Source: Oscillospiraceae bacterium (GTDB lineage Bacteria > Bacillota > Clostridia > Oscillospirales > Ruminococcaceae). Taken from it: a stretch of 16,418 nt of DNA. Positions 2 through 13,897 of this stretch are shown here, piece after piece. The notes beneath the pieces are model-generated. The model was not told the DNA's origin. It did no database searches and worked only from the letters and a program-made list of their open reading frames with translations. How positions within the stretch are numbered: position 1 is the stretch's first letter; each line of letters starts with the position of its first letter. The stretch spans positions 1-16,418 of the forward strand of contig JAFQND010000234.1 in the NCBI GenBank assembly GCA_017396055.1. The letters run 5' to 3'. A program made the position numbers and the translations under genes.

Positions 2-652
2 GGTGCTTCCCAGTTCGAACCGCTGGAACATCTGGTCAAGGCTGACATCGACTGGTCTAAGGTTGAGATGTTCCATCTGGACGAGTATGTTGACCTGCCC
101 GAAACTCATGTGGCTTCCTTCCGCAAATACCTCAAGGAGCGCTTCATCCAGAAGATCAACCTGAAGGCTGCTTACCTGGTCGACGGCACCCCCGAATGCA
201 TCGAAGGACTGACCAAAGAACTGCGTCGCGCCCCCATCGATGTAGGTCTGATCGGCATCGGTGAAAACGGCCATATCGCCTTTAACGATCCCCCTGCTGA
301 TTTCGACACCACCGAAGCTTATATCATCGTCAACCTGAACGATACCTGCAAAAAACAGCAGGTCGGCGAAGGCTGGTTTGCCACTGTGGACGATGTGCCC
401 AAGCAGGCAGTTTCGATGACCGTTTACCAGATCCAGCAGTGCGAAAAGATCGTCTCCTGCGTTCCCTATGCCGTTAAAGCTGACGCTGTCAAGAAGACCC
501 TGGAACAGGATGCCAACAACTTGGTTCCCGCCACTGTCATGAAAGGACATGACGATTTTGCACTCTTCGTTGACGCCGACTCTTATGCAGGTGTAGACGA
601 AAGCCTGATCCGTCCCGCTCCCGGCAAAGATTATACCATCGAAAAGCTTTGA
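2..652 (+). CDS. NagB-like glucosamine-6-phosphate deaminase, 5'-truncated
   Basis: The reading frame is open from the window edge (first full codon at base 2), so the N-terminus is missing; the Met at 68 is internal, because residues upstream of it (GASQFE) continue the family pattern. The fold is that of glucosamine-6-phosphate deaminase, which converts glucosamine-6-phosphate to fructose-6-phosphate and ammonia in cytoplasmic amino-sugar catabolism. Visible motifs are LDEY (the Asp corresponds to the E. coli NagB catalytic base Asp72), GIGENGHIAFNDP, and QVGEGWF. The second motif differs from the E. coli form GNDGHIAFNEP: the Asp141 equivalent is Asn and the Glu148 equivalent is Asp, while His143 is kept. 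This variant is, from memory, common in a NagB-like branch, so the exact substrate is less certain than the fold. A strong terminator follows directly. Upstream partners lie outside the window. Confidence 0.85.
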   Translation, partial: GASQFEPLEHLVKADIDWSKVEMFHLDEYVDLPETHVASFRKYLKERFIQKINLKAAYLVDGTPECIEGLTKELRRAPIDVGLIGIGENGHIAFNDPPADFDTTEAYIIVNLNDTCKKQQVGEGWFATVDDVPKQAVSMTVYQIQQCEKIVSCVPYAVKADAVKKTLEQDANNLVPATVMKGHDDFALFVDADSYAGVDESLIRPAPGKDYTIEKL

Positions 653-659
653 TCCCCAT

Positions 660-790
660 AAAAACACTGATCCCGCAGAGCAATGCTCTGCGGGATTTTT
701 TCGGTAAGGAGAGGCAAACCTTACCACCGGAATATGCTTTTTGCTTTTTCGCGGTTCTTTCATCCGTGCTATCGCTTTCACGGAAGAACT
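660..790 (-). ncRNA. Candidate small RNA in the gap between nagB-like gene and symporter
   Basis: A well-formed minus-strand promoter at 797-825 has no protein gene downstream of it. Transcription from about 790 would give roughly 120-130 nt before the nagB-like terminator stem and its trailing T-rich stretch. Predicted hairpins are: a 5' one pairing GTTCTT with AAGAAC and CCGTG with CACGG (bases about 789-755); a perfect 7-bp stem GGTAAGG/CCTTACC (725-719 with 709-703); and the 11-bp terminator stem (695-671). I do not recognise a known RNA family. Transcription reaching past the stem would be antisense to the end of the nagB-like gene. No ORF with a ribosome binding site is seen; the only minus-strand frame starts inside the -10 region. 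This rests on promoter quality and structure, with no family match. Confidence 0.35.
671..702 (+). terminator. Intrinsic terminator after nagB-like gene
   Basis: An 11-bp perfect stem (TCCCGCAGAGC at 671-681, GCTCTGCGGGA at 685-695) with a 3-base loop is followed by a T run to 702. It starts 18 bases after the stop codon. On the minus strand the same stem is followed by GTGTTTTT a few bases later, so it may also stop minus-strand transcription, less efficiently. Confidence 0.93.
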
Positions 791-796
791 GAATAT

Positions 797-825
797 AGTA
801 TATCATATAGATGTTGATTAGTCAA
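797..825 (-). promoter_or_regulatory. Sigma-A-type promoter reading leftward, no gene downstream
   Basis: On the minus strand TTGACT (825-820) is separated by 17 bp from TATACT (802-797). This is one of the best matches to a housekeeping promoter in the window. The likely start is near 790. The -35 lies within the palindrome at 812-827. Confidence 0.6.
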
Positions 826-827
826 CA
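812..827. promoter_or_regulatory. Palindromic putative operator overlapping the -35
   Basis: The 16-base element TGTTGATTAGTCAACA has perfect 6-base arms (TGTTGA/TCAACA) around a 4-base centre. It covers the -35 of the leftward promoter at 797-825, the expected place for a repressor site. Its form (TTGATnnnTCAA-like) recalls MarR-family sites, but no regulator of that kind is in the window, and part of the symmetry comes from the -35 itself. Confidence 0.35.
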
Positions 828-859
828 ATGTCTGCCGATGTTTTCAAAATGTTCAAAAT

Positions 860-889
860 AAAAGACCCCGACCGAAGCCGGGGCCTTTT
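860..889 (-). terminator. Intrinsic terminator of the symporter gene
   Basis: Read on the minus strand, a 9-bp stem GGCCCCGGC/GTCGGGGTC (two G-T pairs) closed by a TTCG tetraloop is followed by TTTTATTTT. It begins immediately after the stop codon. The plus strand also ends in a T run, so it may act in both directions. Confidence 0.88.
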
Positions 890-2251
890 TTAAATCTTAA
901 TAATACCGTAGGCATTGAGAACCGACGATACAAGAATCAGAAGGATGCAGGCCGGTGCAATATAACGAATGACAACCGAGAACAGCTTCTTCCGTTTGAA
1001 TTTATTTCCTTCCAGCTCAGCCTCTTCGATAACGACATGAGGCTTCAGCACAAAGCCCACCAGCAGACAGGTCGCCAGAGCAACAATGGGCATCATGACA
1101 CTGTTGCTGACAAAATCGAACAGATCAAGGAACTGCATACCCAGGATCTTGACATCAGCCCAGATACTGTAGCCGAAGGAGGATACTGCACCCAGCAGCA
1201 AACTGAAGATCAGAACACTGATGACCGCAGTCTTTCGTCCAAGGTGAAGCTTGTCCTGCAGGATGGAGACGACAGTTTCCATCAGAGAGATAGCCGAAGT
1301 GAGCGCTGCCAGAAATACCATGATAAAGAATGCGGCACCGATAACCGTACCACCGGGCATAACGTTGAACACCTTCGGCAAAGTTACAAACATCAGACCA
1401 GGGCCCTGACCAAGTGCGCTTTCATCGCCGCCGGAGAAAGCAAAGACCGCAGGGATGATCATCAGACCGGAAAGGAAAGCAACACCTGTATCAAAAATCT
1501 CAATATGGCCGACCGAGCCTTCGATGCTGATATCTTTTTTCATATAAGAACCGAAGGTGATCATGATACCCATCGCCAGCGACATGGAATAGAAAAGCTG
1601 ACCCATAGCGGCAACAACGGTCATGACAGAGAAATGGGAAAAATCAGGCATCAGATAATACTTGACGCCTTCAAGCGCGCCGGGCATCACGAAAATCGTA
1701 TACAGCGAAATAACGATAGTCAGTACGACCAGAACGGGCATCATATATTTACTGACTTTTTCAACGCCCTTCTGTACACCGAAAAGAACGGTGAGGGCAG
1801 TGACACCAATAAAAACAGCAAACCAGATCAGAGGCTCCCAGCTCATGCCGATAAAGGAGTCGAAATAACTGTCTTCGGCCATGGCAGCAACTTCGCCGCT
1901 CAAAAAGCCGACCAGATATTTCAATACCCAGCCGCCGATAACACTGTAGTACGGGGTAATGATGATGGGAATAAGGGCAGTGATCCATCCGGCAAAGTCA
2001 AACCTCTTGTCCAGTGTTTTATAAGCAGCAATGGCACTGAGACCGGTCTTGCGTCCGATGGCGATTTCGGCCATCATCAGCGAGAAGCCAAAAGTCACTG
2101 CCAGAATAATATAGGTCAACAGGAAAACACCGCCGCCATACTTTGCAGCAAGATAAGGGAATCTCCAGATATTACCCAGACCAACCGCCGACCCGGCGGC
2201 TGCCAATACGAAACCGATTTTTCCGGTAAAGGAACTTCTTTTTTCGTTCAC
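890..2251 (-). CDS. Sodium:amino-acid symporter, NSS (SNF) family
   Basis: This is a polytopic inner-membrane protein of the neurotransmitter:sodium symporter family, which imports an amino acid or related solute with Na+. The hallmark first transmembrane segment is clear: SAVGLGNIWRFPY followed by KYGGG, including the unwound region that binds Na+ and substrate. The TM6 region has QLFYSMSLAMG and ITFGSYM. I place the start at the GTG at 2251, because AAGGAG (2266-2261) lies 9 bases upstream; a longer reading from a TTG at 2272 would place that ribosome site inside the gene. The resulting 453 residues match the length of MhsT-type bacterial members with 11 membrane spans. Substrate is not readable from sequence. 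It is divergent from the choloylglycine hydrolase operon, so uptake of glycine or taurine freed from conjugates is a tempting but unproven role. Confidence 0.93.
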   Translation of the reverse strand: MNEKRSSFTGKIGFVLAAAGSAVGLGNIWRFPYLAAKYGGGVFLLTYIILAVTFGFSLMMAEIAIGRKTGLSAIAAYKTLDKRFDFAGWITALIPIIITPYYSVIGGWVLKYLVGFLSGEVAAMAEDSYFDSFIGMSWEPLIWFAVFIGVTALTVLFGVQKGVEKVSKYMMPVLVVLTIVISLYTIFVMPGALEGVKYYLMPDFSHFSVMTVVAAMGQLFYSMSLAMGIMITFGSYMKKDISIEGSVGHIEIFDTGVAFLSGLMIIPAVFAFSGGDESALGQGPGLMFVTLPKVFNVMPGGTVIGAAFFIMVFLAALTSAISLMETVVSILQDKLHLGRKTAVISVLIFSLLLGAVSSFGYSIWADVKILGMQFLDLFDFVSNSVMMPIVALATCLLVGFVLKPHVVIEEAELEGNKFKRKKLFSVVIRYIAPACILLILVSSVLNAYGIIKI

Positions 2252-2260
2252 GAATATTTT

Positions 2261-2266
2261 CTCCTT
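2261..2266 (-). promoter_or_regulatory. Ribosome binding site that fixes the symporter start
   Basis: AAGGAG on the minus strand sits 9 bases before the GTG at 2251. No comparable site precedes the in-frame TTG at 2272, so the shorter protein is preferred. Confidence 0.8.
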
Positions 2267-2288
2267 ACACAATCAAATTGATATATTC

Positions 2289-2317
2289 ATTATCTCATAT
2301 TATACGGCAAATTACAA
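2289..2317 (-). promoter_or_regulatory. Promoter of the symporter gene
   Basis: TTGTAA (2317-2312) and GATAAT (2294-2289) are 17 bp apart on the minus strand. The inferred start near 2282 gives a leader of about 30 bases, too short for a riboswitch. Confidence 0.5.
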
Positions 2318-2404
2318 TGGCCTGAAAAGAGAATTTTGGATTTATGAATATCCTTCGGATAAAAGGCGAACTTATTTCTGCAAATGTGCAAAATCTGAAA
2401 AATA

Positions 2405-2413
2405 TGATATACT
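2405..2413 (+). promoter_or_regulatory. Extended -10 promoter of the choloylglycine hydrolase operon
   Basis: TGATATACT is an extended -10 (TG, one base, TATACT), with the TATACT at 2408-2413. I see no good -35 at the expected distance. The ribosome site AAGGAG (2435-2440) lies 7 bases before the ATG at 2448. Confidence 0.5.
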
Positions 2414-2447
2414 GAAACTGATAAAACGGATATAAAGGAGAAGTTAT

Positions 2448-3422
2448 ATGTGCACGGCTGTTTCGTATAAAACAAAAGATCACTATTTTGGCCGTACTCT
2501 CGATCTGGAATATTCCTATCATGAGACGGTCACCATTACACCGAGAAACTATCCCTTTGTTTTTCGTCGGATGGGCGAAAGAAAAAGCCATTATGCCATG
2601 ATCGGTATGGCATATGTAGCAGAGAAATACCCCCTTTATTATGAAGCAGTCAACGAATGCGGTCTCGGCATGGCAGGATTGAATTTTGTCGGCAATGCCT
2701 GTTACTATGACGAAGCTGACGGAAAAGACAACGTTTCGCCCTTTGAGTTTATCACGTGGATCCTCTCACAGTGTGCTGACATTCCACAGGTGAGAGAAAA
2801 GCTTTCCCGGATCAACCTGGTCAATATCAATTTCAGCGAAGCACTCCCTCTCTCGAAACTTCACTGGATCATTGCTGACAGGAACTGTTCCATTGTCGTG
2901 GAAGCCATGGCAGACGGGATGAAAATTTATGATAACCCTGTAGGCGTACTGACCAATAATCCGCCTTTTGATTATCAGCTGTTCAATTTGAACAACTACC
3001 TTTCTCTCTCGAAAGATCAGCCGGAGAATACCTTTGCCGATGGGCTGGAACTGACCCGCTACAGCAGAGGTATGGGCGCACTGGGGCTGCCGGGCGACCT
3101 TTCGTCGATGTCGAGGTTTGTGCGAGCCGCCTATGTCCGGATGAACTCCCGCTCGGGAAGCTCTGAGCCGAAAAGCGTCAGCCAGTTCTTTCATATTCTC
3201 GGTTCGGTGGATCAACAGCGGGGCTGTGTACGGATGCCGGACGGGAAATACGAACTGACCATCTATACCTCCTGCTGCAATACCGACAGGGGCATCTATT
3301 ACTATACCACTTATGACAATCATCAGATCACTGCTGTTGATATGCACAGGGAAGATCTGGACGGAGAAAAGCTTGTGTCCTATCCGCTCATCACCAGCGA
3401 ACAGATCCGGATGCAGAACTGA
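2448..3422 (+). CDS. Choloylglycine (bile salt) hydrolase family protein
   Basis: This 324-residue protein belongs to the linear-amide C-N hydrolase (Ntn-hydrolase) family, which includes bile salt hydrolase and penicillin V acylase. The N-terminal Met is followed by Cys2, the nucleophile exposed after Met removal. The other family positions are present: Arg16 and Asp19 (FGRTLDLEY), Asn79 (GLNF), Asn170 (GVLTN) and Arg223 (SRF). Asn79 is the residue expected in bile salt hydrolases, where penicillin V acylases usually have Tyr. Length and the GIYYYTTYDNHQI stretch match the clostridial bile salt hydrolases well. There is no signal peptide, so it should be cytoplasmic and cleave the glycine or taurine amide of imported conjugated bile acids. 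It is first in an operon with two amidohydrolase-fold genes, with 8 bases to the next start. Other N-acyl amide substrates remain possible. Confidence 0.92.
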   Translation: MCTAVSYKTKDHYFGRTLDLEYSYHETVTITPRNYPFVFRRMGERKSHYAMIGMAYVAEKYPLYYEAVNECGLGMAGLNFVGNACYYDEADGKDNVSPFEFITWILSQCADIPQVREKLSRINLVNINFSEALPLSKLHWIIADRNCSIVVEAMADGMKIYDNPVGVLTNNPPFDYQLFNLNNYLSLSKDQPENTFADGLELTRYSRGMGALGLPGDLSSMSRFVRAAYVRMNSRSGSSEPKSVSQFFHILGSVDQQRGCVRMPDGKYELTIYTSCCNTDRGIYYYTTYDNHQITAVDMHREDLDGEKLVSYPLITSEQIRMQN

Positions 3423-3430
3423 GGGAAAAT

Positions 3431-4177
3431 ATGATCATCGATACACACACCCATCTCTGGCTCGGGCGGGAGAAAGAATGCAGAGAAGCCATTCTGCGGG
3501 CAGCGGAAGAATACGGCTATCTCCGTGCGGGAGTCAGCACCCTTTATTCCGAACTGCCGTCCGAAGAGGAGATCACCGCCTGCAACAAGGCCACGGCAGA
3601 TTTTATCCGTAATTATCCCGAACTGATCTTCGGCTGGTGCTATCTGAATCCCCGGCACAAAAATACGCTGGATGTGCTGAAAAGAGGTCTGGAAGAACAG
3701 CGGATGACCGGTGTCAAGCTCTGGATTGCGACTCTTTGTGACGATCCGGCGGTGGATCCCATTGCAGAATACTGCTCGGAACATCATATTCCTGTGCTGA
3801 TCCACGCTCTCGACAAAACCGTGGGACAGATGAAATACGAATCAAAGGGCATCCATGTGCGGAATCTCGCCAAACGGTTTCCTGAACTGAAGATCCTGAT
3901 GGCTCATATGGGTGGAAACGAGTACACCGGTATCAAACCAATCATCGACTGTCCCAATGTGTCTGTGGATCTCTGTGGTGTTGTACACCGGGCCGATTCA
4001 TTGGAATATGCCATCGAAAGGCTGGGAATCGACCGGATACTCTACGGCACCGACATGGTCGGGGGCGGCGCTTTCTGGAATAATATCGGCCGGGTGGAAG
4101 CGCTGGAACTTTCTGCCGAAGAAAAAGCACAGATCTATCACAAAAATGCGGAAACATTCATTTTCGGAGGGCGGTGA
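3431..4177 (+). CDS. Amidohydrolase-family (amidohydrolase_2, TIM barrel) protein, metal site intact
   Basis: This 248-residue protein has the compact metal-dependent TIM-barrel fold of the amidohydrolase_2 group (COG2159 type), whose members hydrolyse amides or lactones or act as decarboxylases. The full ligand set is visible: His6 and His8 in DTHTH, Lys96 (GVKLW), His125 (LIHAL), His159 (MAHMGG) and Asp208 (YGTDM). No signal peptide is seen. It starts 8 bases after the hydrolase stop, with GAGGG just upstream of the ATG, and ends 4 bases before the next start, so all three genes should be co-transcribed. The substrate cannot be told from sequence. The operon suggests action on a product or relative of the choloylglycine hydrolase substrate, which is inference. 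Confidence 0.85.
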   Translation: MIIDTHTHLWLGREKECREAILRAAEEYGYLRAGVSTLYSELPSEEEITACNKATADFIRNYPELIFGWCYLNPRHKNTLDVLKRGLEEQRMTGVKLWIATLCDDPAVDPIAEYCSEHHIPVLIHALDKTVGQMKYESKGIHVRNLAKRFPELKILMAHMGGNEYTGIKPIIDCPNVSVDLCGVVHRADSLEYAIERLGIDRILYGTDMVGGGAFWNNIGRVEALELSAEEKAQIYHKNAETFIFGGR

Positions 4178-4181
4178 ACAG

Positions 4182-4931
4182 ATGGAGGTCTATGATATCA
4201 ACTGTTTTTACGGGCACTGGCCTTTCCGCTTTCTGAGACATCAGAGCCTTGAAGAACTTGTCCGCGTCCATCAGAAATCCGGTATCACCGGCGGCGCCGC
4301 AGGATATCTGGACAGTATCTTTTATAACGATCCATCGGAAGGAGACGAACAGCTTTTCCACGAGCTGCCCGAAAGATATATTCCCACCCTTTGTATCGAT
4401 CCGAAGCTGTCGATGGCCATACAGGATATCGAGCGATTTTCTCCTCGGGCAGTGCGGGTATATCCCGGTATGCACGGTTACCGGCTGACCGACGGCGTCT
4501 TCGCGTCCGTGGCGGAATATCTGCAGCAAAACGGCATCCCGCTTCTGGTCAATGTTCGGCTGTATGTTTCAAGAGAAGCGCATTTTTTCCTGCCGCCGGA
4601 ACCAGATATTGCAGACGAGCTTGAATTTCTCCGGCGGTATCCAGGTCTGAAAACCGCTTTTCTCGGTCATGACTGGACAGAGCTCAAACAGCTGGCAGAA
4701 GGTTTACAGCAGCTGAAAGGAGCCAACGTTCTCTTTGACACCTCTTTTGTACGGTCGGCAAAGCTGGAACCCATCGCCGAAAAACTGGGGGCTGAACGGC
4801 TCGTTTTCGGGTCATGTCATCCCCTGCTCTGTCTGGAAAGTGTCAGACTGACCATTGAAAAATCAAACCTGAGTGAAAAAGAAAAGCAAATGATCTTTTC
4901 GGAGAATTTTCTTCGGTTTATGGCAAAATAA
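4182..4931 (+). CDS. Amidohydrolase-like TIM-barrel protein lacking the metal ligands
   Basis: This 249-residue protein is similar in length and layout to its upstream neighbour. I take the ATG at 4182, with GGAGGG at 4166-4171; the frame is open further upstream but overlaps the preceding gene. Compared with that neighbour, the catalytic positions are changed: the N-terminal DxHxH is D5-x-N7 within YDINCFYGHWPF, the Lys is Arg92 (VRVYP), the strand-5 His is Asn124 (LLVN), and the final Asp falls at Cys212 in FGSCHP. Only His163 (FLGHD) appears kept. It is therefore probably not a standard metal-dependent hydrolase. It may be a pseudoenzyme partner of its neighbour, or use different chemistry. 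A terminator follows directly. Confidence 0.75.
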   Translation: MEVYDINCFYGHWPFRFLRHQSLEELVRVHQKSGITGGAAGYLDSIFYNDPSEGDEQLFHELPERYIPTLCIDPKLSMAIQDIERFSPRAVRVYPGMHGYRLTDGVFASVAEYLQQNGIPLLVNVRLYVSREAHFFLPPEPDIADELEFLRRYPGLKTAFLGHDWTELKQLAEGLQQLKGANVLFDTSFVRSAKLEPIAEKLGAERLVFGSCHPLLCLESVRLTIEKSNLSEKEKQMIFSENFLRFMAK

Positions 4932-8205: not shown

Positions 8206-9999
8206 ATGAAGACCTATGGCTATACCAAAGTTGATCTGACCGGCGGCTATCTGTTTGAAAAGCAGGAGCTGAACCGTACTGCTACCATCAAGGCGGTCTA
8301 TGACCGTTTTGACGAGACCGGACGCGTCGGCGCTTTCCGCTTTGACTGGAAGCCGGGCGACGACCTTCGCCCCCATATCTTCTGGGACAGCGACATTGCC
8401 AAATGGATGGAGGGCGCTGCCTATATCCTGGCAAAACATGCCGACCCCGAGCTGGAAAAGAAAGTGGACGACCTTGTTGCCCTGGTCAAAAAGAATCAGG
8501 ACGAGAACGGTTATTTCAACATTTATTATACCGTTGTGGAGCCGGAAAATCGGTTCACCGACCGGGAATGCCACGAGCTTTACTGTGCCGGCCACATGAT
8601 GGAGGCTGCCGTTGCCATCGCAGAAGCCACCGGCAAGACTGACCTGCTGGACTGCATGGAAAAATACGCCGACCATATCCACAAGGTCTTTGTGGAGGAC
8701 AACAGCGCCGGATTCTTCACCCCCGGCCATGAGGAGATCGAGCTGGCGCTGGTCAAGATGTACCGCTATACCGGCAAGAAGAAATTCCTCGACCTGTGTG
8801 CTCACTTCATCAACACCCGCGGCACCGTGGAGGAAAAACGCGGTGACATCTACACCCAGTCGCATATGCCCGTCCGCGAACAGGCGGAAGCTGTGGGACA
8901 TTCGGTCCGCGCCTGCTATCTTTATACCGGCATGGCCGACCTTGCCATCGAGACCGGCGACGAGGCACTGAAAGCTGCCTGCCGCAAGCTGTTTGACAAC
9001 ATGGCAAACTGCAAGATGTATGTGACCGGCGGCCTTGGCTCCACCTATATGGGCGAAGCTTTCACCGGCGCATATGATCTGCCCAACGACACCGCCTATG
9101 CCGAGACCTGTGCATCCATCGGTATGATCTTCTTTGCCCACCGGATGATGCAGATGGACGGCGACGCAAAATATGCCGACATGATCGAGCTGCAACTGTA
9201 CAACGGCATGCTGTCGGGCCTTTCTGCTGACGGTGCAGCTTTCTTCTATGAAAATCCGCTGGAGATCAACCTGAGCGAGCAGTACGATTCCGCCTATTAC
9301 GGCAAGCGCCGCTTCCCCATCACCGAACGCGTCGAGTGCTTCAGCTGCTCCTGCTGCCCGCCCAACCTGAACAGAGTTCTCCCCTCTATGGGACAGTACG
9401 TCTATGGTATCGAAGGCGACACTCTCTTTGTAAATCAGTATATCGGCTCAGTGCTGAAGGACAGCGGAATCTCCTGCACCATGACCACCGATTATCCCCG
9501 TACCGGCACTATTTCCGTCAAGGCGGAGGGCACCGCAAAAGTTGCCCTGCGCATTCCCGGCTGGTGCAGAGGTTTTACCCTCAATAAGCCCTATGTAATG
9601 GAAAAGGGCTATGCCGTTGTGGAAAATGACGGCGAGATCATTCTCGAGCTGGATATGCAAGCATATGCTGTCTTTGCCGATCCCCGTGTACTGCGCGATG
9701 CCGGTAAACTGGCTATCCGCCGCGGACCGATCGTCTACTGCGCCGAAGGTGTGGATAATGGCAGCGATCTGCACAGCTATCTTGTCAAGGCAGGCTTCAA
9801 AGCTGCCGAAGTTCCCTGTGAATTCGGTCTGCCTGCACTGGATATTCCCTGCAAAAAGCTTCTGCCTCTGGAAAGCGGTCTGTACAGCGCCGAAATGCCC
9901 GGAACAGAAGATGCTGTTCTGCGGATGATCCCCTATAATGCCTTTGCAAACCGCGGTGAGAGCGACATGCTGGTCTGGCTGACTGCAGCGCTGGGTTAA
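8206..9999 (+). CDS. Glycoside hydrolase family 127, probable beta-L-arabinofuranosidase
   Basis: This 597-residue protein is a GH127 (DUF1680) enzyme; characterised members release L-arabinose from beta-L-arabinofuranosides of plant glycoproteins and arabinans. The N-terminal region has RPHIFWDSDIAKWMEGAAY, typical of the family. The zinc-thiolate active site is recognisable: Glu300 and Cys302 (YAETCASIG) and Cys381, Cys383 and Cys384 (CSCCPPNLNR). These correspond to Glu338, Cys340, Cys415, Cys417 and Cys418 of Bifidobacterium HypBA1, in which Cys417 is the nucleophile. There is no signal peptide, so it should act in the cytoplasm on imported short oligosaccharides. It is a single-gene unit with its own promoter and terminator. 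Codon use leans to C-ending codons (ACC, GAC, GCC) more than its neighbours do, suggesting high expression or a different history. No arabinose uptake genes are in the window. Confidence 0.92.
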   Translation: MKTYGYTKVDLTGGYLFEKQELNRTATIKAVYDRFDETGRVGAFRFDWKPGDDLRPHIFWDSDIAKWMEGAAYILAKHADPELEKKVDDLVALVKKNQDENGYFNIYYTVVEPENRFTDRECHELYCAGHMMEAAVAIAEATGKTDLLDCMEKYADHIHKVFVEDNSAGFFTPGHEEIELALVKMYRYTGKKKFLDLCAHFINTRGTVEEKRGDIYTQSHMPVREQAEAVGHSVRACYLYTGMADLAIETGDEALKAACRKLFDNMANCKMYVTGGLGSTYMGEAFTGAYDLPNDTAYAETCASIGMIFFAHRMMQMDGDAKYADMIELQLYNGMLSGLSADGAAFFYENPLEINLSEQYDSAYYGKRRFPITERVECFSCSCCPPNLNRVLPSMGQYVYGIEGDTLFVNQYIGSVLKDSGISCTMTTDYPRTGTISVKAEGTAKVALRIPGWCRGFTLNKPYVMEKGYAVVENDGEIILELDMQAYAVFADPRVLRDAGKLAIRRGPIVYCAEGVDNGSDLHSYLVKAGFKAAEVPCEFGLPALDIPCKKLLPLESGLYSAEMPGTEDAVLRMIPYNAFANRGESDMLVWLTAALG

Positions 10000-10015: not shown

Positions 10016-10052
10016 AAAAAAGACGGACAGCATAAGCTGTCCGTCTTTTCTT
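10016..10052. terminator. Bidirectional terminator between GH127 and ridA-like genes
   Basis: An 11-bp perfect stem AGACGGACAGC (10021-10031)/GCTGTCCGTCT (10036-10046) with loop ATAA has an A run before it and a T-rich stretch after it. It ends the plus-strand GH127 gene (stop at 9999) and the minus-strand operon (stop at 10062). Confidence 0.94.
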
Positions 10053-10061
10053 TTATTTTGC

Positions 10062-10517
10062 TTATTCGATTTCGAACAGGCCTTCGATCTCCACGGGAAT
10101 ATTGCCGGGGAGAGCGACCATACCGACTGCAGAACGGGTGGGAACATCGCCGAACAGCTCAGCCAGCAGATCGCTGCCGCCATTGGCGACTTTGGGATGC
10201 TCATAGTAATCGGGGCCGCTGGCAACAAAGGCGGTCAGCTTAACCAGAGTCTTGACACGGTCAAGGTCACCGATCTCGCGCTTGAGAACAGCCAGAACGT
10301 TGAGCATGCAGTTGCGGGCATGAACATAGCCTTCCTCGGTGGTCATATCGACACCCAGCTTACCGGTAACGGGAGCGTCAATGACAGGACCACAGCCGGA
10401 GATGTAGACCAGCTTGCCGCCGCAGAAGGTCTTTGCGGGAGAGTAGACACCGCCCTTGGGAGGGGGAGTGGGCAGAGCAAGACCCATTGCTGCCAGTTTT
10501 TCTTCGATTTTAGACAT
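10062..10517 (-). CDS. RidA family (YjgF/YER057c/UK114) enamine/imine deaminase
   Basis: This 151-residue cytoplasmic protein resembles the longer RidA-like subgroup (starting MSKIEEKLAAMG, with a Pro-rich PTPPPKGGVYSPA). Arg128 in TRSAVGM followed by ALPGNIPVEIE matches the conserved substrate-carboxylate Arg and the following acidic residues of the family. RidA proteins hydrolyse 2-aminoacrylate and related enamines or imines released by PLP enzymes, protecting other PLP enzymes. The start at 10517 is chosen because AGGAAG (10530-10525) lies 7 bases upstream; a longer reading to 10595 would overlap the preceding gene and lacks such a site. It is the last gene of the D-amino-acid operon, 34 bases after the acetyltransferase gene, and may also have its own promoter. 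The link to the PLP enzyme at the operon's head fits its known chemistry. Activity of this longer subgroup is less well established. Confidence 0.88.
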   Translation of the reverse strand: MSKIEEKLAAMGLALPTPPPKGGVYSPAKTFCGGKLVYISGCGPVIDAPVTGKLGVDMTTEEGYVHARNCMLNVLAVLKREIGDLDRVKTLVKLTAFVASGPDYYEHPKVANGGSDLLAELFGDVPTRSAVGMVALPGNIPVEIEGLFEIE

Positions 10518-10550
10518 GATATTACTTCCTTTCGGTATAGATTGACATTG

Positions 10551-10556
10551 ATTATA
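10551..10556 (-). promoter_or_regulatory. Possible internal -10 box before the ridA-like gene
   Basis: A consensus TATAAT on the minus strand overlaps the acetyltransferase stop codon and would start transcription near 10544, with a leader of about 27 bases. No convincing -35 is present, so it is weakly supported. Confidence 0.3.
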
Positions 10557-11115
10557 CATTAAGTCTTGAAAACGGGAGAAATGGCTCGGGATCACTTACC
10601 CGCTCGGCGATCAGTTTTTCCATCCAGACAATGCTGTACCATTTGTCGAATTTATAGCCGCACAGCTCATGCTTTCCCACAAGAGCATATCCGTTTTTAC
10701 GGTGGAAACGAACGCTCGCATCGGTCAGATGTGCATCGTTTTCCCGCTCAGTCACGGTAATACAAGCGCAAAGCAGAAACACATTCTGCCGGATGAGGAT
10801 CTTTTCCAGCTCACGATAGAGAAGGCTGCCAATTCCTTTTCCGTGCTGACTGCGCTCAAGATAAATCGACACTTCAGCAGAATGTTTATAAGCCGCCCGC
10901 GAATGAAATGAGCCGGCATAAGCATAGCCTATAACCCTGCCGTTTTCCACCCCTACCAGATAGGGATATTCCTTCAGAGTATTTTCGATCCTGCAGACAA
11001 ATTCAGCTTCGTCCGGCACATCATACTCAAAGGTAACCGCGGTATCGGTCACATAGGGAGCATAAATCTCCCGAATAGCTGCAGCATCTTCCTTTACAGC
11101 AAACCTGATCTCCAT
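10552..11115 (-). CDS. GNAT acetyltransferase, phosphinothricin/methionine N-acetyltransferase-like
   Basis: This 187-residue GNAT-fold enzyme transfers acetyl from acetyl-CoA to an amine. The CoA-binding motif is at residues 90-97 (QHGKGIGS) after EVSIYLERS. The N-terminal IREIYAPYVTDTAVTFEYDVP matches the phosphinothricin acetyltransferase (PAT/MnaT) branch, known to acetylate the alpha-amino group of small amino acids and analogues such as methionine sulfoximine. It starts 5 bases after the deacylase gene ends, with GGAAGG just upstream and overlapping that stop, so it is firmly co-transcribed. In this operon it might acetylate D-amino acids, the reverse of the deacylase. That would be an opposing pair and needs an explanation, such as detoxification versus use. 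The C-terminal 20 residues extend beyond the core fold. Confidence 0.85.
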   Translation of the reverse strand: MEIRFAVKEDAAAIREIYAPYVTDTAVTFEYDVPDEAEFVCRIENTLKEYPYLVGVENGRVIGYAYAGSFHSRAAYKHSAEVSIYLERSQHGKGIGSLLYRELEKILIRQNVFLLCACITVTERENDAHLTDASVRFHRKNGYALVGKHELCGYKFDKWYSIVWMEKLIAERVSDPEPFLPFSRLNV

Positions 11116-11120
11116 GAGGC

Positions 11121-12710
11121 TTACCTTCCCTTGCGCAGGACTTTACCCGCAAAGGCACCGGTGACAGTATCATCGATGACGGCTTTTTTGCCGCCCACAA
11201 GGACAAGGTTCAGACCAGTTGCATACTGCTTGGGTTCGGTAAAGGTAGCGGTATCCTGAATGGTTTCCGGATCGAAGACGCAGATATCTGCTGCCATGCC
11301 CTCTTTCAGAAGACCGCGATCGGTAAGACCCATCCGCTTGGCGGGCAGACCGGTCATCTTATGAACAGCTTCTTCCAAAGACATTAGCTTGCGATCCCGG
11401 ACCATATGAGCGATCATTCTGGGGAAAGAACCGTAAAGTCTGGGATGTGGCAGGTCGCCTCCACCGTAAAGAGAATCGGAGATAACCGAAGTATAGGGCA
11501 GACCCAGTACCAGCTCCACATCCGACTCGGACATACTCATCAGGATAACGCCCACCTTGCCGCTGTTCTTTTCGACCAGTTCAGCCAGAGCAGCTTCGGG
11601 GCAGACACCCATCTCTTTCGCGATCTCTTCCATATTTTTGCCGGAGCAGAATTTATACTCAGGACAAATGACCGAGCTGATAATGATGCGGTCCCAGCCG
11701 ATGGAATGAACCATATTGTCCCAGTCATCGTGATCGCGGGCGATCTCTTTTTTCAGCAGTTCGATACCCTCGGGGGTATTGATAGTGTCCACGGGAACAG
11801 TGGGAGGCACCAGCGTCAGAATGGTGGTGGAACCGGCCATATAGGGATAAGCATCGGTAGTGACATCAATACCTTCCGCGCGGGCGGCTTCAATCTTTTC
11901 GATGGCAGTGGGCAGGGATTTACCCCAGTTGCGGATACCGACCACTTTGAAGTGGCTGATATTGATGGGAACACCTGCTTTTCCGGCGATGCGGATGACT
12001 TCTTCCACAGAAGGGATCAGGCTGTTGCCCTCGCCTCTTACATGGCTGGTCAGATAACCGCCATAGGGAGCAGCTTCAGAGACCATAGCGACATATTCAT
12101 TCTCAAGAGTATAACACTCGGGATTATACATGATGCCGCAGGAAAGGCCGAAGGCACCGGCTTCCATAGCATCACGGACAAGGCTCTTTGCCTTTTCAAG
12201 CTGTTCGGGCGTGAACGGCTCCTGTGAGAAACCTTTGGCCGCAACAGTAATGGCACCGGTGGCGGCAAGAGTGGCGGTATTGACACGAAGGGGCTTTTCC
12301 TCCAGCGCTTCCAGATAAGAAGAAAGAGTCGGGAAGAAATATTCGTCCGGCATATGGCCAAGACAGGGCTCGATATAACTTAAAAGCGCCTCACGGTTTT
12401 CTTCGGACATGGGGGTGGGAGCAAGACCGCAGTTGCCATTAAGGACAGTGGTGACACCCTGTCTCAGCTCGATGATGCCAAAATCAGGGTCGGTAAGCGC
12501 GGCAGTATCGCCGTGACGGTGGGTATCGATAAAACCGGGAGTGACGGTCAGTCCTCTTGCCTCGTAAACCTCGTCGGCTCGGATGGAAAAGAGCGGATCG
12601 ATTCCCTCATAAACCTGAACGATCTTTCCGTCTTCCACAAGAATACTGCCGTAAAAGGCTTCTCTGCCGGTACCGTCGATGATATTGCCGTCTTTGATCA
12701 GCAGTTTCAT
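11121..12710 (-). CDS. N-acyl-D-amino-acid deacylase (D-aminoacylase family)
   Basis: This 529-residue zinc-dependent amidohydrolase has a small beta-sandwich formed by both ends (residues 1-58 and about 475-529) and a TIM barrel between. It hydrolyses N-acyl-D-amino acids to a fatty or acetic acid and a D-amino acid. Expected residues are present: His64 and His66 (PGFIDTHRHGD), Cys94 (NGNCG), His223 (TSHVRGEG), His253 (ISHFK) and Asp412 (ISDS), then HPRLYGSFPR. Cys94 as metal bridge is the signature of D-aminoacylases as against dihydroorotases and hydantoinases. The ATG at 12710 has AGGAGG (12720-12715) overlapping the stop of the preceding gene, so translation is probably coupled. Related enzymes cleave N-acyl-D-Glu, N-acyl-D-Asp or broad substrates; which one cannot be told. 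Confidence 0.9.
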   Translation of the reverse strand: MKLLIKDGNIIDGTGREAFYGSILVEDGKIVQVYEGIDPLFSIRADEVYEARGLTVTPGFIDTHRHGDTAALTDPDFGIIELRQGVTTVLNGNCGLAPTPMSEENREALLSYIEPCLGHMPDEYFFPTLSSYLEALEEKPLRVNTATLAATGAITVAAKGFSQEPFTPEQLEKAKSLVRDAMEAGAFGLSCGIMYNPECYTLENEYVAMVSEAAPYGGYLTSHVRGEGNSLIPSVEEVIRIAGKAGVPINISHFKVVGIRNWGKSLPTAIEKIEAARAEGIDVTTDAYPYMAGSTTILTLVPPTVPVDTINTPEGIELLKKEIARDHDDWDNMVHSIGWDRIIISSVICPEYKFCSGKNMEEIAKEMGVCPEAALAELVEKNSGKVGVILMSMSESDVELVLGLPYTSVISDSLYGGGDLPHPRLYGSFPRMIAHMVRDRKLMSLEEAVHKMTGLPAKRMGLTDRGLLKEGMAADICVFDPETIQDTATFTEPKQYATGLNLVLVGGKKAVIDDTVTGAFAGKVLRKGR

Positions 12711-12719
12711 ACTTCCTCC

Positions 12720-13835
12720 TTAGACGAGACAGCCGCGGGCAGCAACCTTTTCCTTGCGGAGGGTACCATCTTCATAAAGCCAGACTTCGTTCTGCAGATT
12801 GATGGTGGGGCAGACGTGAAGAGGAACCAGTTCCAGCAGCTGACCGACTTTCAGACCGGTATGACCGTTTCTGGCGGTGATCATGCCGTGCTCTTCGTTC
12901 ATTCTCTGCAGGCAGAGATTATCGTCGCCGGGAACAACTGCGTAGCCGTGGAAGTAATAGGGGGGCTGATCCAGTTTTCCGTCCATAGGGAAGGTCTTGA
13001 CGCCGCCGTCAATGACCGCATAGCCCTCTTCGGGGGTGCTGACAACGGTAGCATAAACGCGGGCAGCCACGTTCTCAAGGCCGATGTTGTTTTCTTTCAT
13101 GATCATATAGTCGTTGAAGATATAGGTGCCGGGGCGGACTTCGGTGACAAGGCCGGTCTGTGCCAGCAGAGCACCGGTAGGGGTGGAACCTGCGCTGACA
13201 TCGACGATAGGAATACCGGCGGCACGAAGTTCGTTTGCCATGGCTGCCATCAGCTCGCCTTCTTCTTTGGCGGCAGCGGCGTTATCGGTAGTGGCTTCAT
13301 CGTGCAGCACCAGACCGCGGAAGGTATAGATACCGGTCATATTCAGGCCGGGCAGAGCAGCAATTTCTTTTGCAAGTTGGAGGTATTTGTCGCGGGTAAC
13401 ACCGGTGCGCTTCAGACCGGTGTCAATCTCCATGCGGACTTCAAAAACGGTGCCTGCAGCAACAGCGGCATCGCTCAGAGGTTTTGCGGATTCCATGCTG
13501 TCGACGGCAAGGATAAATCTTTTGAGCTTTTTCTGTACCTCAAGGGCACGGCGGATACGGAATTCACCGACCAGCGGATATGCAATAAAGATATCATCGC
13601 AGCCTGCTTCGATCATGACTTCAGCTTCGGATACCTTGGCGCAGGTGAAGCCCTTACAGCCGGCAGCCATCTGGAGCTTTGCGAGAGAAAGCATCTTATG
13701 GGTCTTGATATGGGGTCTCAATGCACAGCCGGATGCATCAGCAATCGCCTGCATATCTGCGATATTCTTTTTTACCTGTGCCATATCGATAACAACACAG
13801 GGAGTTTCCAGTTTTGCCAGAAGTTCTTTTTCCAT
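12720..13835 (-). CDS. PLP enzyme, D-serine dehydratase / D-threonine aldolase-like (fold type III)
   Basis: This 371-residue protein has an alanine-racemase-like N-terminal barrel and the C-terminal metal-binding domain of the D-serine dehydratase/D-threonine aldolase family. Lys44 in RPHIKTHK should bind PLP. The C-terminal motif LVPLHVCPTINL gives His340 and Cys342; His-x-Cys is the zinc pair of eukaryote-type D-serine dehydratase, whereas characterised D-threonine aldolase uses His-x-Asp. That favours D-serine deamination to pyruvate and ammonia, but beta-hydroxy-D-amino-acid cleavage cannot be excluded. It heads the operon, with AGGAGG 9 bases before the ATG and a clear promoter. The deacylase that follows would supply D-amino acids, and the RidA at the end fits the 2-aminoacrylate intermediate. 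Confidence 0.88.
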   Translation of the reverse strand: MEKELLAKLETPCVVIDMAQVKKNIADMQAIADASGCALRPHIKTHKMLSLAKLQMAAGCKGFTCAKVSEAEVMIEAGCDDIFIAYPLVGEFRIRRALEVQKKLKRFILAVDSMESAKPLSDAAVAAGTVFEVRMEIDTGLKRTGVTRDKYLQLAKEIAALPGLNMTGIYTFRGLVLHDEATTDNAAAAKEEGELMAAMANELRAAGIPIVDVSAGSTPTGALLAQTGLVTEVRPGTYIFNDYMIMKENNIGLENVAARVYATVVSTPEEGYAVIDGGVKTFPMDGKLDQPPYYFHGYAVVPGDDNLCLQRMNEEHGMITARNGHTGLKVGQLLELVPLHVCPTINLQNEVWLYEDGTLRKEKVAARGCLV

Positions 13836-13868: not shown

Positions 13869-13897
13869 ATCCTAGCACAAATCATGGTATCTTGCAA
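13869..13897 (-). promoter_or_regulatory. Promoter of the D-amino-acid operon, sharing its -35 with the divergent promoter
   Basis: On the minus strand TTGCAA (13897-13892) is 17 bp from TAGGAT (13874-13869), preceded by TGC as an extended -10. The -35 is palindromic and is also the -35 of the plus-strand promoter at 13892-13920. Confidence 0.6.

Follow-up and report, generated by a model that had tools for sequence, protein, structure and literature searches.

A conserved unit of PLP enzyme, deacylase and Rid genes in an Oscillospiraceae bacterium, with a predicted role in the breakdown of N-acylated D-amino acids

A contig of 16,418 nucleotides from an Oscillospiraceae bacterium (JAFQND010000234.1 in assembly GCA_017396055.1; the whole contig is henceforth called the window) carries a compact operon of four genes. 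In order of transcription, these genes encode a fold-type III pyridoxal phosphate (PLP) enzyme, an N-acyl-D-amino-acid deacylase, an N-acetyltransferase and a Rid protein. We find that the deacylase, the fold-type III PLP enzyme and the Rid protein make up a real, conserved unit. The interpretation that we favor, with moderate confidence, is that the operon belongs to a catabolic module, common in the sampled Clostridia and Spirochaetes, for an N-acylated, D-configured beta-hydroxy-alpha-amino acid, which would undergo deacylation, metal-assisted elimination and hydrolysis by Rid. In other words, the operon probably serves to remove first the acyl group and then the amino group from an N-acylated D-amino acid, or from a sugar-derived compound that resembles one. 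Gene order, protein families and conserved catalytic residues can be read from the sequence, while the reactions, the substrate and the role of Rid are predicted from it.

Conservation of the gene unit

Species genomes of GTDB were scanned with an alignment of the Rid protein, and 186 confirmed stretches were obtained. The best 80, chosen by the Rid gene alone, were analyzed. Judging by record title, these 80 Rid loci come mostly from Clostridia and Spirochaetes; two of them (L085 and L086) belong to one assembly, have an identical gene map and are both counted. When partners were sought within 4 kb on the same strand, the PLP enzyme, deacylase and Rid genes appeared in the same order as in the window in 37/80 loci (the deacylase of one of them, L090, is a remnant) and in another order in 4 more, so that all three genes are found in 41/80. 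A single partner lies beside Rid in 26 loci, and at least one partner is present in 67. Counted separately by the same rule, the PLP gene is found in 55/80 loci and the deacylase gene in 53/80; if either strand and a distance of 5 kb are allowed, the figures become 56/80 and 55/80. Among the 61 loci with sufficient sequence on either side (3 kb ahead of the Rid match and 3.5 kb from its start onward), all three genes are found in 34 and Rid is alone in 10.

Holders of the window's gene order include records of Hungatella, Neglectibacter, Anaerocolumna, Breznakiella and Treponema. The module is also found in that order, at positions 123-3314 and hence within 3.2 kb, in an unannotated 24-kb circular record of Subdoligranulum labelled as a plasmid (L166, OY725852.1). 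In the bacterium's own family, represented by 119 genomes, none of the three genes is common: the deacylase occurs in 15 genomes (limit 1e-40), the PLP enzyme in 8 (1e-30) and Rid in 5 (1e-20). For genes this uncommon, adjacency at such a rate is unlikely to be due to chance.

Other observations weigh against a fixed unit. Rid lacks both partners in 13/80 loci, among them the closest locus (L060, 77% identity). Linkage is also rarer within the own family: 24 of its 28 deacylase loci have neither a PLP nor a Rid neighbor. The PLP gene lies beside the deacylase in the other 4, alone in two (L033, L051) and together with Rid in two (L032, L058), so that the whole module is present in 2/28. A Rid gene is carried by four other genomes of the family, and in two of these it adjoins the PLP enzyme and deacylase genes. 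The remaining two, G030 (a genus mate) and G043, show Rid alone within the ~3.4 kb that was read; in G030, a distant deacylase-PLP pair lies on another contig than Rid. The window's own genome is an assembly of 1.9 Mb in 351 contigs, 68% complete, of which the window is contig C141.

The first-pass annotation of the window had suggested a search for conserved co-occurrence of all four families in this order. Conservation holds for the PLP enzyme, the deacylase and Rid, in the 37 loci mentioned above, and fails for the acetyltransferase, which adjoins the module in none of the 80 Rid loci and the deacylase in none of the 28 own-family loci. Members of the acetyltransferase family occur, scattered, in 47 of the 119 genomes, one of which is the window's own. 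Two further genomes of the family (G093, G104) have the PLP enzyme, deacylase and Rid genes, and there the acetyltransferase lies on other contigs. The base composition of the gene also departs from that of its neighbors: its GC content is 0.475 and its GC content at third codon positions (GC3) is 0.484, versus 0.526-0.564 (GC) and 0.570-0.618 (GC3) in the rest of the operon. The acetyltransferase is therefore probably a local, lineage-specific insertion outside the conserved module, with a separate or accessory role.

These data also bear on a "store-or-spend" cycle put forward in the first-pass annotation, in which the acetyltransferase would N-acetylate D-amino acids and the deacylase would reverse the reaction. 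Such a cycle has in its favor the adjacency of the genes, in this window only. Against it stand the absence of the acetyltransferase from the neighborhood of the module and the deacylase, its scattered occurrence, its lower GC and GC3, and the specificity of its named relatives for phosphinothricin and arsinothricin, which are L-glutamate analogues. Because the acetyltransferase adjoins no module in the Rid loci and is scattered elsewhere in the family, the cycle is left unsupported and we consider it very improbable. The annotation "PAT-like" is likewise only loosely apt, as the protein scores under the cut-offs of the phosphinothricin model (85.6 of 300 bits) and of both ArsN1 models of NCBIfam (151.9 of 210 and 80.5 of 170 bits); membership in the GNAT family, with likeness to ArsN1b and phosphinothricin acetyltransferases, does stand.

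Predicted chemistry of the three enzymes

The reactions that we propose can be summarized as follows: (i) a zinc-type amidohydrolase would take the N-acyl group off the substrate, giving the acylate; (ii) aided by a divalent metal on His340/Cys342, the fold-type III PLP enzyme would eliminate water from a beta-hydroxy D-amino acid; and (iii) a dedicated Rid1-like protein would hydrolyze the released enamine/imine to a 2-oxo acid and ammonia. In nature, the substrate might be N-acyl-D-serine/threonine or else a sugar-derived N-acetyl amino acid, for example an N-acetylhexosamine aldonic acid. That deacylation, PLP-dependent elimination and Rid chemistry could link up had been anticipated in the first-pass annotation, and both the conserved unit and a dehydratase-type metal site are in line with such a pathway.

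The key residues of the PLP enzyme are Lys44 (PLP), Arg143 and the metal pair His340/Cys342. The His-x-Cys pair is strongly conserved, with His340 in 43/44 sequences and Cys342 in 44/44. The metal site is thus of the D-serine/3-hydroxyaspartate dehydratase type, and dehydratase activity itself is predicted. Fold-type III PLP binding and the His-x-Cys metal site are shared with D-threo-3-hydroxyaspartate dehydratase (3WQC) and chicken D-serine dehydratase (3ANU), to which the window's enzyme is about 28-32% identical by structural alignment.

A different picture emerges from overall similarity. In sequence searches, D-threonine aldolase 4v15 ranks first (9e-54, versus 2.9e-44 for dehydratase 3wqc), aldolases fill the first six rows of the Foldseek results, and the window's enzyme itself carries a histidine, His178, at the position of the aldolase base His193, a role described in PMC4401734. 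These observations speak against a dehydratase, and would suit an enzyme that acts as an aldolase on D-threonine or another D-beta-hydroxy amino acid: the deacylase would free the amino acid, retro-aldol cleavage would follow, and Rid would clear occasional side products or serve another enzyme. Aldol cleavage yields glycine and an aldehyde, and therefore no enamine. However, the His-x-Asp metal pair of aldolases is absent, as all 44 sequences have Cys at the position of aldolase Asp349. Furthermore, the base histidine is found in only 10/44 sequences, the window included, though it is conserved together with the metal ligands in 19 annotated aldolases (PMC4401734). With an aldolase, moreover, so frequent a Rid neighbor would have no evident function. 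Altogether, we regard an aldolase as unlikely and maintain the prediction of a dehydratase-type eliminase.

In the deacylase, His64, His66, Cys94, His223, His253, Lys255, Tyr288, Asp412 and Arg424 are invariant in 20 aligned sequences and were aligned with the Alcaligenes faecalis D-aminoacylase (1M7J). In D-aminoacylases, such residues form a Cys/His/His metal site, the catalytic Asp, a His pair and the Lys/Tyr/Arg anchors for the carboxylate (PMC12017989). By its residues, the protein qualifies as a putative D-aminoacylase (subtype V amidohydrolase). It shares fold, metal ligands, catalytic Asp and carboxylate anchors with 1M7J and with the N-acyl-D-glutamate deacylase of Bordetella (3GIP). 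It is, however, longer (529 residues, versus 484 and 480 in these chains), and the extra stretch lies near the substrate loop; therefore, specificity cannot be transferred from either enzyme.

The Rid protein matches PF14588 and scores 29.2 bits with the RidA model TIGR00004, whose cut-off is 106.25; a separate, archetypal RidA gene (168.2 bits) exists elsewhere in the same genome. Judged by these matches, the Rid of the operon is Rid1-like and not an archetypal RidA, so that the earlier label "RidA-family protein" is right about a Rid protein and inaccurate about the subfamily. Arg128 and Glu143 are invariant in 24 aligned sequences and, by spacing, presumably correspond to Arg105 and Glu120 of E. 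coli RidA. Its five PDB matches include PA0814 and ACIAD3089, third and fourth after two uncharacterized proteins; both have been assigned to the Rid1 subfamily (PMC5619798), with which the window's protein shares the PF14588 match and the catalytic Arg and Glu (PMC4433059, PMC5619798). In the portions of those articles consulted, no in vivo substrate of Rid1 is defined, whereas Rid1-like genes of the window's type are tied to one enzyme pair. Clustering of Rid genes, some Rid1 included, with genes for PLP enzymes has been described (PMC4433059); the words "aldolase" and "deacylase" do not occur in the main text of that article.

Genomic context of the unit and its relatives

Open reading frames (ORFs) neighboring the 80 loci were clustered and mapped, and each cluster was named from one representative by Pfam and NCBIfam. 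On the module strand, two sugar-type ATP-binding cassette (ABC) permeases were found in 25/80 and 23/80 loci, together with GH2 (16/80), a solute-binding protein (13/80), GH9 (12/80), GH3 (10/80), an ATPase resembling N-acetylglucosamine (GlcNAc) kinase (9/80), GH29 (6/80), an M20 peptidase (5/80), a SIS protein (5/80), GH125 (3/80) and NamZ (2/80). Among proteins of solved structure, the GH2 representative is best matched by beta-mannosidases. At least one of the listed genes is an immediate neighbor (<200 bases away, on the same strand) in 27/80 loci, a figure that falls to 23/80 for sugar genes because L085, L086, L093 and L096 have only the M20 peptidase adjacent. The sugar-operon context of some relatives hints at a glycan-derived substrate, and we lean slightly toward a sugar-derived compound over N-acyl-D-serine/threonine. 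The low figure of 23/80 counts against such a substrate, as does the observation that only 14 of 41 window-like loci (PLP enzyme at least 54% identical to that of the window) have an adjacent gene of this kind; in the window itself, no sugar ABC or glycosidase gene lies on the strand of the unit. The sugar link holds, in sum, for a minority of relatives. In the first-pass annotation, the candidate substrates were D-amino acids such as D-Ser, D-Thr or D-Glu that might stem from peptidoglycan or the diet; the operon neighbors in this minority direct attention to glycans.

With these reservations, a tentative and rather speculative proposal is that the Clostridia/spirochaete module is the finishing step of an unrecognized glycan pathway. 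A mannose- or fucose-bearing glycan would be imported by the ABC system and trimmed by GH2, GH125, GH3, GH9 or GH29. The product, either an amino-aldonic acid in N-acetylated form or a beta-hydroxy amino acid in glycosylated form, would undergo deacylation, beta-elimination and Rid hydrolysis; no motif of a 2-keto-3-deoxygluconate (KDG) kinase is found at the locus.

Variant loci were also detected. In L129 (8001-11230), a SelA/aminotransferase-V-like PLP enzyme and a mandelate-racemase-family enzyme adjoin Rid and the deacylase, and the fold-type III enzyme is absent; L133 similarly has Rid and deacylase without it. The arrangement in L129 suggests that the fold-type III enzyme has been replaced by an unrelated ammonia-lyase. 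Within the proposed glycan pathway, it would be consistent with two unrelated ammonia-lyases serving a single substrate. The operons of L085, L093 and L096 differ in that Rid adjoins genes for an alpha-L-fucosidase, an M20 peptidase and a more divergent PLP enzyme, 34-38% identical to that of the window. A NamZ exo-N-acetylmuramidase gene in L106 (12037-13224) and two members of the NamZ-named cluster in L098 (12273-14648) are located downstream of the module at a distance of a few kilobases and hint at a link with peptidoglycan in some lineages.

The features of the operon are listed in Table 1. Gaps of 9, 5 and 34 bases between its genes, noted in the first-pass annotation, agree with the ORF coordinates. 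The ATG start of Rid is preceded by AAGGAAG, and the longest Rid ORF begins earlier, with GTG at 10595; AGGAGG is found nine bases 5' of the ATG of the PLP gene. A GH127 gene lies downstream in convergent orientation and a LytTR response regulator gene lies upstream in divergent orientation; hence, the unit is made of these four genes only. A strong, terminator-like hairpin behind Rid ends the unit; it is also listed, in a 14-pair version, on the + strand for the GH127 gene.

Table 1. Features of the four-gene unit (window coordinates)
Feature	Position	Strand	Remarks
Fold-type III PLP enzyme gene	12720..13835	-	371 aa; Ala_racemase_N and D-ser_dehydrat domains
D-aminoacylase-like subtype V amidohydrolase gene (N-acyl-D-amino-acid deacylase)	11121..12710	-	529 aa
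GNAT N-acetyltransferase gene, ArsN1b/phosphinothricin-acetyltransferase-like	10552..11115	-	187 aa
Rid1-like (predicted) enamine/imine deaminase gene	10062..10517	-	151 aa counted from ATG
Terminator-like hairpin 3' of the Rid gene	10016..10051	-	16 pairs, 4-base loop, T-run
Possible promoter, TTGCAA-17-TAGGAT, TGn before second hexamer	13869..13897	-	Found by eye; under the threshold of the scan tool, not listed by it

Elsewhere in the window, all on the + strand, the GH127 gene (8206-9999) has an aceric acid hydrolase as its nearest model, far under the cut-off (375 of 950 bits). A gene of the choloylglycine (bile salt) hydrolase family (2448-3422; 493.5 bits, NCBIfam cut-off 350) is closely followed by an Amidohydro_2 gene (3431-4177) and by an ORF, ending at 4931, that by eye resembles a second amidohydrolase.

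Comparison with the ong cluster and other known systems

The closest known counterpart is the ong cluster of Pseudoalteromonas prydzensis, a chitin-eating marine bacterium, where OngB, OngC and OngD degrade oxidized N-acetylglucosamine (GlcNAc1A). OngB deacetylates GlcNAc1A, and OngC deaminates glucosaminate as well as D-Ser and D-Thr; all three proteins are required for growth on GlcNAc1A and are co-regulated by OngR (PMC9537276). The same article cites breakdown of N-acetyl-D-serine/-threonine via deacetylation and deamination. Common to the ong cluster and the window are a D-aminoacylase-like deacetylase, a fold-type III PLP deaminase and a Rid-family gene. Hence, the pairing of Rid with a fold-type III D-serine-type enzyme, presented as notable in the first-pass annotation, was already known from OngC and OngD, and also from PMC7014002.

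Might the module be the ong pathway proper, with a GlcNAc1A deacetylase, a glucosaminate deaminase and Rid feeding KDG into 2-keto-3-deoxy-6-phosphogluconate (KDPG) metabolism? The three protein families are the same, the 23/80 loci with directly adjacent sugar genes (a GH2, GH3, GH9 or GH29 glycosidase, a sugar-type ABC permease or the GlcNAc-kinase-like gene) would suit it, and the KDPG-aldolase family has five members in the window's genome. However, the window's deacylase lacks the Ser292 signature of OngB: the position, placed via a gap-free stretch of the 1M7J alignment, is occupied by Thr295, invariant in the 20 sequences, and Thr is the D-aminoacylase state (PMC12017989). OngB chains score lowest among the D-aminoacylase-type PDB matches of the deacylase. 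Moreover, the PfkB sugar-kinase motif was found in 0/930 neighbor ORFs of the 80 loci, LPMO_10 was not found in the window's genome (68% complete), and the window's unit has the bare strand described above. Identity with the ong pathway therefore seems quite unlikely, and we retain the catabolic module for an N-acylated beta-hydroxy D-amino acid. A second residue typical of OngB, Gln at position 298, lies in a loop that HMMER left unaligned.

Further differences concern layout and distribution. The four-gene unit lacks the hexosaminidase, SSS symporter, KDG kinase and OngR of the ong cluster (relatives were not searched systematically for the hexosaminidase and the symporter) and has an acetyltransferase in addition. 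Its Rid is Rid1-like, with 151 aa; OngD, described as a RidA-family protein, has 127 aa. The module occurs in Clostridia and Spirochaetes, while ong clusters are almost restricted to Gammaproteobacteria.

The ong system also provides an argument against an obligatory Rid step: OngC gave ammonia and a keto product in vitro without OngD, whose role was left open (PMC9537276), so Rid need not be chemically required. Rid roles are indeed an open matter in the literature, as OngD is essential on GlcNAc1A (PMC9537276) and no physiological role of Rid1 is defined in the portions consulted of PMC4433059 and PMC5619798. The compact, conserved operon of Rid1, eliminase and deacylase offers a clean system to test whether an elimination pathway requires Rid as a catalyst or whether Rid is a general detoxifier. 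It hints at an uncharacterized clostridial route for glycan-derived amino acids; if the glycan pathway outlined above is true, Rid1 would acquire a defined physiological partner.

Two other systems deserve comparison. In Paraglaciecola hydrolytica, a predicted six-gene operon with PhNah20A was annotated in 2020 as containing an amino acid deaminase, a D-aminoacylase and a RidA-family protein (PMC7014002). The three shared proteins are known by annotation, and the layout, with GH20, a sodium:solute symporter and a MurR/RpiR regulator, is ong-like and unlike that of the window. The dad operon with DadY likewise has a Rid protein inside a D-amino acid catabolic operon; its imine source, however, is a flavin dehydrogenase and not a PLP eliminase, and DadY belongs to Rid2, not Rid1 (PMC9714295). 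Among the papers examined, PMC9537276 and PMC7014002 bring a Rid protein together with a deacylase (or D-aminoacylase) and an enzyme of D-serine type or fold-type III; subscription papers fell mostly outside the search, and we make no claim to be the first to report the clostridial module. The operon described here is a variant of a known combination, in other taxa and partly in other gene contexts.

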